Positions 12,196 through 25,747 of a stretch of DNA of 44,108 bases are shown here, piece by piece. Positions within the stretch are counted from its first letter, which is position 1; every line of letters begins with the position of its first letter. The position numbers were made by a program, and so were the translations under genes. The DNA lies in assembly GCF_001996165.1 (NCBI RefSeq), contig NZ_MUFP01000004.1, forward strand, positions 35,182-79,289, given 5' to 3'. Source of the DNA: Salinivibrio proteolyticus. Lineage in GTDB: Bacteria; Pseudomonadota; Gammaproteobacteria; Enterobacterales; Vibrionaceae. The notes beneath the pieces are model-generated. The model had not been told where the DNA came from and made no database searches. It saw nothing but the letters and a program-made list of their open reading frames with translations.

Positions 12196-12693
12196 TTACT
12201 GGCGCAGCGCTCGCTCGCCGCGAGCAATGCCAACCACGCCACTGCGTGCTACTTCAATGATCTCGGTAATTTCACCGACCGCGCGAATAAAGGCATCCAA
12301 CTTGTCACTGTCACCCGTTAGCTGCACGGTATATTGTGAAGCTGTCACATCTACAATTTGCCCCCGGAAAATATCGGCGGTGCGTTTTACCTCCGCGCGG
12401 GCGTAGCCACTCGCTTTCACTTTCACCAACGCCAGTTCACGTTCAATGTGATCGCTTTCAGTCACATTGCTTACTTTCAGCACATCAATCAGCTTGTGCA
12501 AATGCTTTTCGATTTGCTCGCGGTCCGCGTCGCTCACCACTGAGGTGGTGATATTTAAGCGCGACAAGGTCGCATCATCGGTGGGTGACACCGTCAGTGA
12601 TTCAATGTTGTAGCCACGCTGAGAGAACAGACCCACCACGCGCGACAAGGCACCCGGCTCGTTTTCCATTAAAACCGATACAATACTGCGCAT
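12196..12693 (-). CDS. ilvH: Acetolactate synthase III small (regulatory) subunit
   Basis: This 165-aa subunit activates IlvI and gives valine feedback inhibition. It has the N-terminal ACT domain ([35 protein letters not shown]) and the conserved C-terminal half ending GVVGIARGERALR. Length agrees with the E. coli protein (163 aa). The start at 12693 is preceded by GGAGAG, and its A is the last base of the ilvI stop codon (TAATG), so the two subunits are translationally coupled for equal production. An in-frame upstream ATG at 12720 lies inside ilvI and is not preferred. Confidence 0.97.
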   Translation of the reverse strand: MRSIVSVLMENEPGALSRVVGLFSQRGYNIESLTVSPTDDATLSRLNITTSVVSDADREQIEKHLHKLIDVLKVSNVTESDHIERELALVKVKASGYARAEVKRTADIFRGQIVDVTASQYTVQLTGDSDKLDAFIRAVGEITEIIEVARSGVVGIARGERALRQ

Positions 12694-14411
12694 TAGGTTC
12701 TCTCCGTTTTGCTCAACCACATTTCATTCATCGCCCCACCGCGTACCTGCATCGGATACACGTGCTCAGTTTCATCGACATGGATATCGACAAACACCAA
12801 GCGATCTTTCATTGCCAGCGCCTTTTCTAGGCCGGCTTCTAACTCAGACGGATGGCTAATGCGCATCCCCACATGGCCATAGGCTTCAGCAATCGCGGCA
12901 AAATCCGGCACCGAGTCCATATAGGAGTGCGAATGGCGGCCTTGATAAATCATGTCCTGCCATTGTTTGACCATCCCGAGGAAACGGTTGTTGAGGTTAA
13001 CGATCACCACCGGGATATCATATTGCAGTGCGGTGGACAGCTCCTGAATGTTCATTTGAATACTGCCATCACCGGTAACACACACCACCTGCGCGTCCGG
13101 TAGCGCGAACTTCACCCCCATAGCGGCGGGTAGCCCAAAGCCCATGGTGCCCAAGCCGCCCGAGTTTATCCAACGACGTGGTTTATCAAACGGATAATAG
13201 AGTGCCGCAAACATTTGGTGCTGACCCACGTCGGAGCTTACATAGGCCTCGCCATCGGTAAGGCGATACAAGGTTTCAATCACTTGCTGCGGTTTGATGC
13301 GCTCCGGATCCACGTCATACTTCAAACACTGACGCTCGCGCCAAGTTTGAATATTGTGCCACCAAGTACTGATCGCATCACTGTCGTTACTGCCACCTTG
13401 CTCCACCAGCAATTTCAGCATGCTATTTAGTACCGCATCCGCCGAGCCGACGATAGGAATATCTGCCGCCACGGTTTTAGAAATGCTCGATGGGTCGACA
13501 TCAATGTGCATGATGGTGGCATCGGGACAGTATTTTTCTAAGTTGTTGGTGGTGCGATCGTCAAACCGGACACCAATACCAAAGATCAGATCGGCTTGGT
13601 GCATCGCCATGTTCGCTTCGTAGGTGCCATGCATGCCCAGCATACCCAGCGAGTGTTGATGGGTGCTGGGAAACGCGCCTAGCCCCATCAAGGTGCTGAC
13701 AACCGGTATGTTAAGGCTTTCTGATAGTTGGCGGATTTGTTGACCGCAATCGGCCATGATGGCCCCACCACCGACATACAGTACCGGCTTTTTCGCCGCC
13801 AGTAGTGCTTTTAAACCACGCTTTATCTGCCCTTTATGTCCCGAAGTAGTCGGATTATAGGAGCGCATGCGTACACTGTCTGGATACTGATAAGGATGCT
13901 TTTGTGCCGGATTTAGCATGTCTTTAGGAATATCCACTACCACAGGGCCGGGACGTCCCGTTGAGGCAAGATAAAAGGCTTTTTTAACAATGTTAGGAAT
14001 GTCTTCAGCGCGCTGGACTAAAAAGCTGTGTTTGACCACCGGGCGGGAGATCCCCACCATATCGCATTCTTGGAAGGCATCATTGCCAATCAGGCCGCTC
14101 ATGACTTGGCCAGAAAACACCACCATGGGGATCGAGTCCATATACGCGGTGGCAATGCCGGTAATTGCATTGGTTGCCCCTGGGCCTGACGTCACCAGCA
14201 CCACCCCTACTTCCCCCGTGGCACGCGCATAACCATCGGCCATGTGGACCGCGGCTTGTTCGTGGCGTACCAACACATGGTCGATATCACTCTTTTCGTG
14301 CAATGCGTCGTATATATCCAGTACTGATCCGCCTGGATAACCAAAAATATGTTTTACGCCTTGATCGATCATGGAACGCACGATCATCTCGGCACCGGAT
14401 AACATTTCCAC
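12693..14411 (-). CDS. ilvI: Acetolactate synthase III large (catalytic) subunit
   Basis: This 572-aa thiamine-diphosphate enzyme makes 2-acetolactate (valine, leucine) and 2-aceto-2-hydroxybutyrate (isoleucine). It shows the catalytic glutamate in the [15 protein letters not shown] motif (about residue 51), an FAD-binding middle domain and the ThDP/metal motif [29 protein letters not shown]. The GTG at 14411 is chosen: GGGAGG sits six bases upstream and the product begins MEMLSGAEM, as in E. coli IlvI. An ATG seven codons further upstream has no ribosome binding site. Expression is likely from a promoter near 14576-14605; in E. coli ilvIH is controlled by Lrp, which cannot be confirmed here. 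Confidence 0.97.
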
Positions 14412-14575
14412 TCTACGCCTCCCTGTTTGCATAGTTAGGACTTACTTTTAGCCTAATCTTGCCCCTTACACTTAGATGTACTGGTGATCACTCACCACGC
14501 GGACATCGAAACCAAATACTGGCGGTAAGGCGGCGTTAGATTGTCACTTGGCCTGCTTCGGATGAAGCTGCAATC

Positions 14576-18738: not shown

Positions 18739-18798
18739 ATGACACTGATTACACTACGCCTCATCCTCCTCCTTATCGTGACTCGGTCGCGCGGGTAG
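18739..18798 (+). CDS. leuL: leu operon leader peptide
   Basis: A 19-codon frame, MTLITLRLILLLIVTRSRG, contains six leucine codons (CTG, CTA, CTC, CTC, CTC, CTT), including three in a row. It lies directly upstream of a terminator and leuA, as leu leader peptides do. A ribosome stalled on these codons when Leu-tRNA is scarce would permit readthrough. Too short for routine gene callers. Confidence 0.93.
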   Translation: MTLITLRLILLLIVTRSRG

Positions 18799-18860
18799 GT
18801 ATTGGGCAGCAATCAGTGAATGCCAAATGTCAAAAACCCGCGCCAGACGCGGGTTTTTTT
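18789..18860 (+). terminator. leu attenuator: antiterminator strand and intrinsic terminator
   Basis: The terminator is AAACCCGCG (18834-18842), a five-base loop and CGCGGGTTT (18848-18856), followed by further T residues to 18860. GCGCGGGT at 18789-18796, the last codons and first stop base of leuL, is an exact complement of ACCCGCGC at 18836-18843, the terminator 5' arm. A ribosome at the leuL stop would cover this strand and allow termination. Confidence 0.88.
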
Positions 18861-18942
18861 GTATCTAACGCCGTCAAAATAAAACACAGCGCCCATTAAG
18901 AGAGCCATGAAGGCGGCGAGCAAACACAACAGGGAGTCACCC

Positions 18943-21602
<2,660 letters not shown>

Positions 21603-21623
21603 TTACCCGTAAGGATACGAGCT

Positions 21624-23045
21624 ATGTCGAATGCAAACACCCAGCAAGGCGCTAAGACCTTGTATGAAAAAATCTATCAAGCCCATGTGATCACCGAGCA
21701 GCCTGGCGAAGCGCCGCTGCTGTATATCGACCGTCATTTAGTGCACGAAGTGACCTCACCACAAGCCTTTGATGGCCTGCGGGAAAAAGGGCGCCCAGTG
21801 CGCCAAGTGAGTAAAACCTTCGCCACCATGGATCACAATGTCTCCACCGAAACCAAAGACATTAACGCGTCAGGGGAAATGGCGCGTATCCAAATGGAAA
21901 CACTGGCCAAAAACTGTGAAGAGTTCGGAGTGACCCTGTACGACTTAAATCATCCTTACCAAGGCATTGTGCATGTGATGGGCCCCGAGCTTGGCATTAC
22001 CCTGCCCGGCACCACCATCGTCTGTGGTGATTCGCACACCGCAACTCACGGTGCCTTCGGTTCCCTTGCCTTTGGTATTGGCACCTCAGAAGTCGAACAC
22101 GTACTGGCCACCCAAACACTCAAGCAATCCCGCGCCCGCACGATGAAAATTGAAGTCACGGGCAAAACCGCCCCCGGGATCACCGCCAAAGATATTGTCC
22201 TTGCGATTATTGGTAAAGTTGGCCACGCAGGTGGCACTGGGCATGTGGTGGAGTTTTGTGGGGACGCCATCACTGCCTTGTCGATGGAAGGGCGAATGAC
22301 GGTCTGCAACATGGCCATCGAATTAGGCGCAAAAGCTGGCCTGATCGCGCCAGATGACACCACCTTTGCCTACCTAAAAGACAAAAAGTTTTCCCCTAAA
22401 GGCGAGCAATGGCAGCAAGCCGTTGCGTATTGGCAAACCTTGCACTCAGATGCCGATGCGCACTTTGATCGCGTGGTCACTCTCGATGGCAGTCAAATCC
22501 ATCATCAAGTCACATGGGGCACCAACCCCGGCCAAGTGGTCAGTGTGCATGATAGCGTGCCTGCTCCAGAGAGCATGACCGACCCGATAGAGCGCCACTC
22601 GGCTGAGCGAGCCTTAAAGTACATGGGACTGACGGCAGGCCAAGCCATTACAGATATCCACATCGATAAAGTCTTTATTGGCTCTTGCACCAACTCACGG
22701 ATTGAAGACATGCGCGCAGCCGCCGCGGTCGCCAAAGGACGACGCGTGGCAGAGGGTGTACATGCCATGGTGGTGCCGGGCTCCGAGCAGGTGCGCGCCC
22801 AAGCAGAGCAAGAAGGGCTGGATGTGATTTTCCGCGAAGCGGGCTTTGAGTGGCGCTTGCCCGGCTGCTCTATGTGTTTGGCGATGAATAATGATCGCTT
22901 AGGCCCCAAAGAGCGCTGTGCATCCACCAGCAACCGTAACTTTGAAGGCCGCCAAGGCCGTGAAGGCCGCACCCACTTGGTCAGCCCTGCGATGGCCGCC
23001 GCCGCTGCTATTGCCGGTCATTTTATTGACGTTAACCAATTATAA
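21624..23045 (+). CDS. leuC: 3-isopropylmalate dehydratase large subunit
   Basis: This 473-aa aconitase-family subunit, with LeuD, isomerises 2-isopropylmalate to 3-isopropylmalate. It carries the three [4Fe-4S] cysteines, in [15 protein letters not shown] and the [10 protein letters not shown] pair, plus the substrate-binding [30 protein letters not shown]. It is about seven residues longer at the N terminus than the E. coli protein (SNANTQQG before [12 protein letters not shown]), and the AAGGA before the first ATG supports the longer start. It forms part of leuABCD with leuD nine bases downstream. Confidence 0.97.
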
Positions 23046-23054
23046 GGAGGCCTC

Positions 23055-23657
23055 ATGTCAGGCATACACACTCATACCGGCATTGTTGCCCCATTGGATG
23101 CGGCGAACGTCGATACTGATGCGATCATCCCTAAACAGTTTTTGCAAAAAGTCACCCGTACTGGCTTTGGTCAGCATCTATTTCACGATTGGCGCTTTTT
23201 AGACGATGCGGGCAAGCAACCGAACCCCGAGTTTGTGCTCAATCAAGCGCGTTACCAAGGCGCAAGCGTCTTGCTCACCCGCGAAAACTTTGGCTGTGGC
23301 TCGTCACGCGAACATGCCCCTTGGGCGCTAGATGATTACGGCTTTAAAGTGATAATCGCCCCCAGTTTTGCCGATATTTTCTATGGCAACTGCATTAATA
23401 ACCAAATGGTGCCGGTGACCCTTGAAGAAGGCCAAATCGATGCTTTATTTACGTATGTGGCAGAAAATGAAGGCGCGACTGTAATGTTAGATTTGCCCGC
23501 CCAAACCATCCGTGCCGGTGAACACTGCTTTAGCTTCCAGATGGATGATTTTCGCCGTCATTGCTTGTTGGAGGGGTTAGATAGCATCGGCCTCACGCTG
23601 CAGCACGACGCTGAGATCTCACGCTTTGAGCAAAACATTCCCGCCTTTTTGGCATAA
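23055..23657 (+). CDS. leuD: 3-isopropylmalate dehydratase small subunit
   Basis: This 200-aa swivel-domain partner of LeuC completes the isomerase active site. Key segments are [19 protein letters not shown] and the [44 protein letters not shown] substrate region with the SREHAPWAL motif. TAAGGAGG precedes the ATG. It is the last gene of the operon and is followed by a strong terminator. Confidence 0.97.
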
Positions 23658-24568: not shown

Positions 24569-24611
24569 AAGGCTTGGTTAACCCTAAGCCAATCAGTACA
24601 ATGGCTTCGTA

Positions 24612-24696
24612 CTCATTGGGGAGCCTCTTGGCTGAGATTGCGCACCGCGCTAAACCCATCGAACCTGATCCAGCTAACACTGGCGTAGGGATTGAG
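24612..24696 (+). ncRNA. TPP riboswitch (THI element)
   Basis: The conserved thi-box blocks are present in order: GGGGAGCC, GCTGAGA, ACCCATCGAACCTGATCCAG and the 3' block AACACTGGCGTAGGGA. P1 forms between CTCATT (24612-24617) and ATTGAG (24691-24696). It lies 55 bases upstream of thiB and should turn the transporter off when thiamine pyrophosphate is abundant. Confidence 0.97.
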
Positions 24697-24724
24697 ACTT
24701 GATGATGTCATCAACCAGCCTCAA
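24692..24724 (+). other. Expression-platform hairpin of the TPP riboswitch
   Basis: TTGATGA and TCATCAA (24699-24705, 24708-24714) form a perfect 7-bp stem. Outside it TTGAG (24692-24696), which is also the 3' strand of P1, can pair with CTCAA (24720-24724). P1 and the outer helix are therefore mutually exclusive. No T-run follows, so control is probably at translation initiation; the link to the AGGAG at 24741-24745 is not clear. Confidence 0.6.
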
Positions 24725-24751: not shown

Positions 24752-25747
24752 GTGAAAGTCATTACGTCTGTTTTAACCGTACTTTCTTTGTCTCTGTTAT
24801 CGCTTGGCGCCCGCGCCGCTGACCCGCTGACTATTTATACCTATGACTCATTTATCGCCGATTGGGGCGCAGGGCCAAAAATTAAAGCCGCCTTCGAGAA
24901 ACGCTGTAATTGTAAGGTCGAGTTTGTGTCCCTTGAAGACGGTGCAGCCTTGCTCAACCGCATGCGGATTGAAGGCAGTACCACCAGCGCCGATATCGTG
25001 CTGGGTATGGACACTAATTTAATGAAAGAAGCGGAGCGGAGCGGCATTGTCGCCGAGCACGCAGTGAATACGGAGCGCCTACAGGTACCCGGCGGTTGGG
25101 ATAATCCCTACTTTATTCCCTACGATTACGGCTACTTTGCCTTCGTGTACGACACCACGCGCCTGCTCGATCCGCCCAAGAGCTTGAAGGCCTTGATTGA
25201 AGATCGTGATGACATCAGTGTGATTTACCAAGATCCCCGTGTCTCCACCGTTGGCCAAGGCTTAATGCTGTGGATCCAGAAAGTATACGGCGATCAAAGC
25301 CAGCAAGCATGGCGTGATCTCGCGGATAACACCATTACCGTGACCAAAGGCTGGACCGAAGCGTACAACATGTTCCTGAACAAGGAAGCGGACATGGTGC
25401 TCTCTTACACCACATCACCGGCTTACCATTTGGTTGCCGATGATGATGACCGCTTTGCCGCCGCGACGTTTGAAGAGGGCCATTATATGCAGATTGAAGT
25501 GGCCGCGAAATCAGCGTACACCGACCAGCCAGAACTGGCCGATGCGTTTTTGCAGTTTATGATTAGCGATGAAGCGCAGTCGATCATTCCCCTTACGCAA
25601 TGGATGTATCCTGTTACTGATATCACTTTACCGGATGCCTTCTACACCTTGAGTAAGCCCGAAAAAAGCTTGATTTATCAACCCGATGAAGTGATGGGCA
25701 ACCGTCAACAATGGGTGCGTGACTGGCAAACGGCGTTGGTTGAATAA
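24752..25747 (+). CDS. thiB: Thiamine ABC transporter, periplasmic binding protein
   Basis: This 331-aa protein binds thiamine and its phosphates in the periplasm and delivers them to ThiPQ. It has a signal peptide (MKVITSVLTVLSLSLLSLGARA) followed by the mature start ADPLTIYTYDSFIADWGAGPKIKAAFEKRCNCKVEFV, typical for TbpA/ThiB, including the paired cysteines in RCNCKV. Translation starts at GTG with AGGAG six bases upstream. It is the first gene after the TPP riboswitch, and thiP follows after five bases. Confidence 0.97.
   Translation: MKVITSVLTVLSLSLLSLGARAADPLTIYTYDSFIADWGAGPKIKAAFEKRCNCKVEFVSLEDGAALLNRMRIEGSTTSADIVLGMDTNLMKEAERSGIVAEHAVNTERLQVPGGWDNPYFIPYDYGYFAFVYDTTRLLDPPKSLKALIEDRDDISVIYQDPRVSTVGQGLMLWIQKVYGDQSQQAWRDLADNTITVTKGWTEAYNMFLNKEADMVLSYTTSPAYHLVADDDDRFAAATFEEGHYMQIEVAAKSAYTDQPELADAFLQFMISDEAQSIIPLTQWMYPVTDITLPDAFYTLSKPEKSLIYQPDEVMGNRQQWVRDWQTALVE

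Follow-up and report, generated by a model that had tools for sequence, protein, structure and literature searches.

In enteric bacteria, the leu leader (Rfam RF00512; E. coli leuL) combines a run of Leu codons with an RNA strand inside leuL, a terminator and leuA downstream. The terms protector and preemptor, which we use for its RNA elements throughout, reportedly stem from the work of Calvo and colleagues. To judge by its title and by a paper that cites it, the study of Vitreschak et al. from 2004 is said to have predicted such attenuators in proteobacteria by comparative analysis, leuA included. A title of 2019 by Deng et al. reportedly concerns attenuation of ilvGMEDA transcription in Vibrio alginolyticus; it deals with the same bacterial family as ours and with a branched-chain operon, but with an operon other than leu. 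A leuA attenuator of Shewanella has been in print since 2009; the paper describes an anti-antiterminator that consists of part of the leader-peptide coding region and half of the antiterminator stem, reports compensatory changes, and builds on the structures of Vitreschak et al. 2004 (PMC2659441). Shewanella represents another family, with the same anti-antiterminator arrangement as the locus studied here. For the trp and his attenuators of E. coli, which follow the same logic with other amino acids and other leaders, the placement of the stop codon and ribosome release have been treated as setting basal read-through (PMC1183508). A survey counts 43 Leu leaders in 255 genomes, Vibrionales included (PMC3766115). 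Our literature search found no paper devoted to the leu leader of Vibrio; most subscription journals lay outside its coverage, so that this is no proof of absence.

The window that we analyzed is a stretch of 44,108 nucleotides from Salinivibrio proteolyticus (Vibrionaceae). We read the leader of its leuABCD operon, with a probability of roughly 0.87, as a ribosome-mediated transcription attenuator and a homologue of the enteric leu leader with its protector, preemptor and terminator. An ORF with clustered Leu codons, an intrinsic terminator in front of the operon, a preemptor, a protector, and homology to the enteric leader in sequence and structure were all found. As such, the attenuator is ordinary in kind: it is of the classical E. 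coli type, like the one of Shewanella.

The leu Leader of the Window

The following features were located in the window:
18739..18798, + strand: leuL leader peptide ORF of 19 codons, MTLITLRLILLLIVTRSRG, with 6 Leu (ORF and its translation)
18766..18774, + strand: control codons CTC CTC CTT (Leu 10-12), which are also part of the protector 5' strand
18768..18782, + strand: protector 5' strand, CCTCCT at 18768-18773 and CGTGAC at 18777-18782 (minimum free energy fold, pair counts)
18786..18799, + strand: protector 3' strand (GTCGCG, GGG, AGG), overlapping the end of leuL and its stop (fold, pair counts)
18789..18796, + strand: switch strand GCGCGGGT, the 5' strand of the preemptor (antiterminator) (sequence, fold)
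18743..18750, + strand: outer helix 5' strand CACTGATT, partner of 18811-18818 (fold)
18811..18818, + strand: outer helix 3' strand AATCAGTG (fold)
18798..18824, + strand: inner hairpin GGTATT / AATGCC, between the switch strand and the terminator and nested in the antiterminator (fold)
18836..18843, + strand: ACCCGCGC, which can pair with the switch strand; terminator 5' arm together with the first base of the loop
18832..18858, + strand: intrinsic terminator, 11-pair stem and 5-base loop CCAGA, followed by a T run
18943..20505, + strand: leuA, 2-isopropylmalate synthase, named by its relatives
20508..23657, + strand: presumably leuB (20508-21602), leuC (21624-23045) and leuD (23055-23657), names that we assigned by recognizing the sequences, without a search

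The window thus shows the order Leu-rich ORF, terminator and leuABCD genes. leuA likely starts with the ATG at 18943, which follows AGGGAG, while the ORF list has a start at 18907; the best named relative of its product is LeuA of S. costicola (96% identity). No sigma-70 promoter-like site passed our scan of the leader region. Two further elements of the window may be recorded here. A TPP riboswitch (Rfam RF00059, 76.3 bits) is present at 24607-24708 (+), just 5' of an ORF at 24752 which, by recognition only, we take to encode a thiamine-binding periplasmic protein. Another branched-chain gene lies near the leu operon, an ORF at 12693-14432 (-) that we presume, again from its appearance, to resemble the acetolactate synthase large subunit (ilvI-like).

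The switch strand spans the last base of TCG, the codons CGC and GGG, and the T of TAG. The preliminary description of this DNA had claimed an exact 8-base complementarity between the end of leuL and the 5' arm of the terminator, and GCGCGGGT is indeed the exact reverse complement of ACCCGCGC, save that C18843, the eighth base of the latter, opens the terminator loop and hence lies outside the stem arm. Among 5000 dinucleotide shuffles of the 90-nt stretch bounded by the leuL start and the arm, 11 contained this 8-mer. The same description had called the attenuator minimal and simpler than its enteric counterpart, a view that does not hold: the protector is kept, a hairpin is nested at 18798-18824, and E. 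coli K-12 has the same strand in leuL, where GCGCGG within the coding sequence faces CCGCGC in the terminator arm much as it does here. The two leaders differ in the position of the leuL stop, which coincides with the switch strand in the window and follows 8 further codons in E. coli, and in the clustered Leu codons, which are CTC/CTT in the former and CTA in the latter.

Leaders Collected and Homology to the Enteric leu Leader

LeuA was present in 325 of the 329 genomes of our family search, and leaders were taken for part of these; in a later set LeuA was present in 370 of 394 genomes, with leaders coming from a part selected among the matches listed. From 202 loci, 150 were counted as Vibrionaceae, 147 of which possess a leader ORF, and these yielded 125 distinct leaders; together with 111 others, the total is 236. 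The Vibrionaceae loci for which no leader was called are L198, L199 and L201. In L198, whose LeuA is 69% identical, our core motif gave no match and a terminator of this type was not visible. L199 and L201 belong to one genome (G100) with leuA in two pieces, and the leader ORF of L199 continues past the switch strand in a frame other than that of its relative L197; a sequencing error or decay is a possible source of this oddity. In the first set outside Vibrionaceae, L037, L066 and L068 had no terminator and L056 had no core motif, while L090-L098 are weak LeuA-like matches and not leuA. The 91 later loci, a set that contains E. coli K-12, gave 15 failures: our routine called no terminator in 13 and no leader in 2. 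Most of these failures fall in families f2, f10 and f13, where the leader may be absent or different. For an alignment of Vibrionaceae leaders 50 were picked and 48 aligned; the two excluded, L140 and L089, are both counted among the 125.

We assessed the relationship to the enteric leader in both directions. The Rfam model RF00512 (Leu_leader) matches the window with 36.5 bits (E 4.2e-6) over its complete length (model positions 1-148), a value below the gathering score of 50. Two of 20 other loci pass this score: E. coli K-12 with 145.8 and, as 1 of the 13 Vibrionaceae among the tested loci, L111 with 58.1; when E. coli is set aside, 11 of 19 loci reach E 0.01. A model built from the 48 Vibrionaceae leaders finds leuL of E. 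coli K-12 (43.1 bits, E 3.5e-7) and 54 of 55 non-Vibrionaceae leaders at E <=0.01 (55 of the 111 were tried; L248 was missed), and all 54 of these leader-strand matches coincide with our leader calls. The best antisense match had an E of 1.4e-5, and 37 of the 55 outside leaders, E. coli among them, score better; because antisense matches contain the terminator hairpin, only these 37 count as evidence of homology. A second genomic copy of the leader was considered and rejected: the next matches (E 6e-4 and 4e-3) were weaker than the antisense one, and no leader with an operon was recognized in the ORF lists there.

These data bear on the possibility that the hairpin merely terminates a small RNA or a transcript from upstream and that the operon is controlled elsewhere, as in control of the Lrp or LeuO type. 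The terminator stands alone and no promoter was scored, in keeping with such a reading, whereas the Leu-rich ORF, the switch strand and the terminator recur jointly upstream of leuA across Vibrionaceae, a leader ORF with a terminator is present in 76 of the 91 later loci, and the Vibrionaceae model matches leaders of other families, down to that of E. coli K-12. We therefore consider a mere terminator very improbable.

Conservation of the Switch Strand

Using a tolerant pattern, we found the switch strand in all 125 distinct Vibrionaceae leaders, with its CGGG core intact in 122. Across all 236 leaders, the best helix between a leader and its own terminator arm reached a mean score of 18.5, compared to 11.9 for shuffled leaders (highest of 20 shuffled means, 12.15). 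In a family which we take to be Shewanella, 12 leaders carry a terminator arm that reads AACCCCGCGC.

The reading context of the strand varies. In 106 of the 125 Vibrionaceae leaders it encodes Arg-Gly at the stop (mostly SRG), 6 leaders translate it in a different frame (RAGS, RAGC or RVGS), and in 13 it is untranslated, lying beyond an upstream stop. The frequency of SRG-like ends right at the stop would be expected if the stretch were kept for the leader peptide, for instance for an effect of the nascent chain, and if the complementarity were a by-product. Yet the same bases are retained in the 6 leaders with the other frame and in the 13 in which they are not translated, and codon choice is nearly fixed where they are: the Gly codon is GGG in 105 of 106 leaders, compared to 219 of the 2829 Gly codons that leuA has at these loci, and the Arg codon is CGC, likewise in 105 of 106 (742 of 1771 Arg codons in these leuA genes). 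A peptide motif is scarcely credible as the reason for this pattern, and the data indicate that the switch strand is an RNA element which overlaps the leader ORF. The sequence, its conservation, its pairing potential and the constraint at the level of RNA are in this respect direct observations.

Two groups of unusual leaders deserve mention. L140 possesses a diverged leader peptide end (ITLLVEG) and lacks a protector of the usual sequence; its switch strand, CTCGCGGG, and its terminator are retained. In the Salinivibrio relatives L002, L087 and L089 the leu terminators are short of one G or C in one arm, the 3' arm in L002 and L087 and the 5' arm in L089, a case of natural variation that weakens either the terminator or the preemptor's partner.

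Protector, Outer Helix, and Inner Hairpin

In the fold of the whole leader, GCGCGGGT is paired with CCTCCT (18768-18773) and CGTGAC (18777-18782), i.e., with the control codons for Leu and the Ile-Val codons that follow them. The core pairs of this protector form in 124, 125, 125, 125 and 118 of the 125 Vibrionaceae leaders. The third pair is U-G in 98 leaders, U-A in 22, C-G in 4 and A-U in 1, the lone A-U being that of L140, whose placement was chosen by best fit; the fourth is G-C in 123 and A-U in 2, a two-sided change found in L025 and L175. The outer pairs CCU:AGG are looser (79, 120 and 114 of 125), and the loop bases are variable. Where CCTCCT faces the switch strand, column conservation over the 125 leaders is 74-100%; this 5' strand is also under coding constraint. 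The loop measures 5 bases in 117 leaders, 4 in 7 and 6 in 1. All six leaders with a shifted frame have the 4-base loop, and the upstream stops lie within the loop, L140 excepted.

Terminator and protector, when scored together, gave a covariation of 0.146 compared to 0.086 for shuffled alignments, a value reached by none of 500 shuffles, and they also exceeded all 500 in the cells paired and in two-sided cells. Some shuffles scored as high in two other counts, those of pairs with two-sided changes (46 of 500) and of pair types (243 of 500). Most of the two-sided cells (40 of 43) belong to the terminator, which has two-sided changes in 3 of its 9 pairs. Versions of both helices that were slid along the alignment pair 28-54% of cells, in contrast to 91% for the helices in place. 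The case for the protector is thus one of conservation, one-sided changes and two compensated cases, with thin two-sided support.

In Salinivibrio, an outer helix (18743-18750/18811-18818) reads CACTGATT/AATCAGTG in the window and CACTGTTT/AAACAGTG in L002, L083 and L084, which constitutes a compensatory pair; in L089 some of its pairs are lost. The inner hairpin has equivalents of the form TGTGG/CCACA or GTGG/CCAC in 62 of the 125 leaders. As a finding that would speak against its proposal, the preliminary description had named an alternative antiterminator at 18799-18833, conserved in place of the strand at the leuL end. We rejected this candidate: the hairpin found there is nested inside the antiterminator, and the best local hairpin outscores the mean of its own shuffles in 114 of the 125 leaders, but the inner-hairpin pairs form in only 70% of cells of the 48-row alignment.

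Covariation of the Preemptor

The six core pairs of the preemptor are possible in 121-125 of the 125 Vibrionaceae leaders, whereas a pair is possible at the seventh base in 46 and at the eighth in 100. At the seventh place many leaders have A-U in the terminator while the leuL strand keeps its C. Covariation of the two 8-base strands across Vibrionaceae, which had been put forward as a check of the proposed antiterminator, was not found: in the 125 leaders none of the 6 core pairs shows two-sided changes, the core is near-invariant and the outer two bases are free. Similarly, preemptor and inner hairpin taken together gave a covariation of 0.091 compared to 0.084 for shuffled Vibrionaceae alignments (80 of 500 as high). 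Such invariance is expected of a strand with two partners, yet it is no positive evidence for the pairing.

Across the order, matched changes do occur: Zobellella and kin combine GCACGGGT with ACCCGTGC, for instance, and a further family has TACGGGT matched by ACCCGT. When terminator arms were swapped among 54 representatives, leaders scored 17.23 with their own arm compared to a mean of 15.84 after individual permutation (maximum of 2000, 16.73); when whole families were permuted, 197 of 2000 permutations reached the observed value, which is not significant. Within Vibrionaceae a foreign arm raised the score in 39% of trials and lowered it in 47%, and for family f17 its own arm was the poorer choice. 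If CGGG is the sole guide to placing the strand, a T in the arm faces A in 20 leaders and G in 23, and a C faces G in 132 of 135; this placement omits the 45 of 223 leaders with a usable arm that have no CGGG in the searched stretch, 13 of 236 leaders have no usable arm, and it is doubtful for some leaders (L275, L263). Judged from these sequences, covariation of the preemptor at the level of the order may exist, and the data are suggestive only.

Switching in Predicted Folds and a Proposed Mechanism

We folded the leaders in different states, mimicking a stalled ribosome by deleting the RNA as far as 13 bases from where the A-site codon begins; the footprint values used in the folds, and for the reach of the ribosome, are general knowledge. 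In transcripts that end before the 3' arm of the terminator and carry no ribosome, 104 of 125 leaders have a protector value above 0.5 (0.87 in the window) and 22 a preemptor value above it. Placing the ribosome on one of the last three Leu codons shifts this picture: the preemptor then passes 0.5 in 118 of 120 leaders for the third-last codon and in 123 of 125 for both the second-last and the last. Together with the pairing counts of the core, these folds uphold the earlier proposal that the end of leuL provides the antiterminator strand. With the ribosome at the stop, the preemptor forms in 0 of 125 leaders by construction, since the strand is masked in that fold. In the full transcript with the ribosome stalled on the same three Leu codons, the terminator is favored in 107 of 120, 116 of 125 and 115 of 125 leaders, and the preemptor wins in 11 of 120, 6 of 125 and 7 of 125. 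The window is among these few, with values of 0.77-0.98 in the stalled states. Since the terminator is favored in the full transcript despite the stall, the preemptor would have to be trapped kinetically in most leaders.

One might dispense with the protector altogether and let the outcome be set solely by stalling on the one hand and masking at the stop on the other. The position of the strand end relative to the stop in the 125 Vibrionaceae leaders (-4 to +14) fits masking, the protector stays below 0.5 without a ribosome in 21 of them, and its two-sided changes are few; set against this, the core pairs of the protector form in 118-125 of the 125 leaders while the loop bases vary, and the protector dominates 104 of the 125 folds, that of the window included. 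A two-state attenuator of this type appears unlikely to us, and we prefer the attenuator with protector, preemptor and terminator.

For this three-element attenuator we infer the response to leucine, the co-transcriptional timing and the ribosome footprints, and propose the following course of events. In the absence of a ribosome, 18786-18799 would pair with the Leu-Ile-Val codons to form the protector, and the terminator would form. If charged tRNA-Leu is scarce, a ribosome would stall on CTC CTC CTT and thereby cover the 5' strand of the protector; the freed switch strand could then capture the 5' arm of the terminator, forming the preemptor with the small hairpin as its cap, and the polymerase would read on. 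A ribosome that reaches the TAG would cover the switch strand, and the terminator would form again.

Position of the Stop Codon

In 235 leaders the spacing between the Leu-codon cluster, measured from its last codon, and the switch strand has quartiles of 14-19 nt (range 2-26; family medians 9-22). Relative to the first base of the stop codon, the end of the strand ranges over these leaders from 25 nt upstream to 14 nt downstream. The 125 Vibrionaceae leaders occupy the part of this range from -4 to +14, while in 28 leaders grouped as Enterobacteriaceae and kin the strand ends 19-25 nt ahead of the stop. Masking of the strand by a ribosome at the stop codon, as originally proposed for this locus, therefore agrees with the geometry in Vibrionaceae but is not a general feature. 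If the ribosome reaches as far as commonly assumed, the strand probably lies within the cover of the terminating ribosome in Vibrionaceae and out of its cover in Enterobacteriaceae and kin.

On a LeuA tree of 73 rows, built by a quick method and with 28 of its 70 inner branches open, the reading context of the strand needs at least 7 changes, at least 4 of which are forced by well-supported branches. The strand is retained in leaders that read it in the other frame or leave it untranslated, and we consider it rather likely that in Vibrionaceae it is kept purely as RNA while the leuL stop wanders around it by way of changes in the protector loop. In L204-L209 (family f25, with a Zobellella-like LeuA), the leuL stop, TAG or TAA, stands directly before the strand (cgcacgggg or cgcgcgggg), an upstream-stop arrangement shared with some Vibrionaceae.

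Our analysis indicates that the design of the enteric leu attenuator reaches through Vibrionaceae and into other families of the order. If the proposed wandering of the stop is true, one homologous family would comprise two designs for basal read-through, masking of the switch strand by the terminating ribosome in one and release to the protector in the other. The leaders with a moved stop form a natural relocation series that would allow a direct test of whether ribosome release sets basal expression, and this series, together with the contrast in stop position, is the single point here that a specialist might use.
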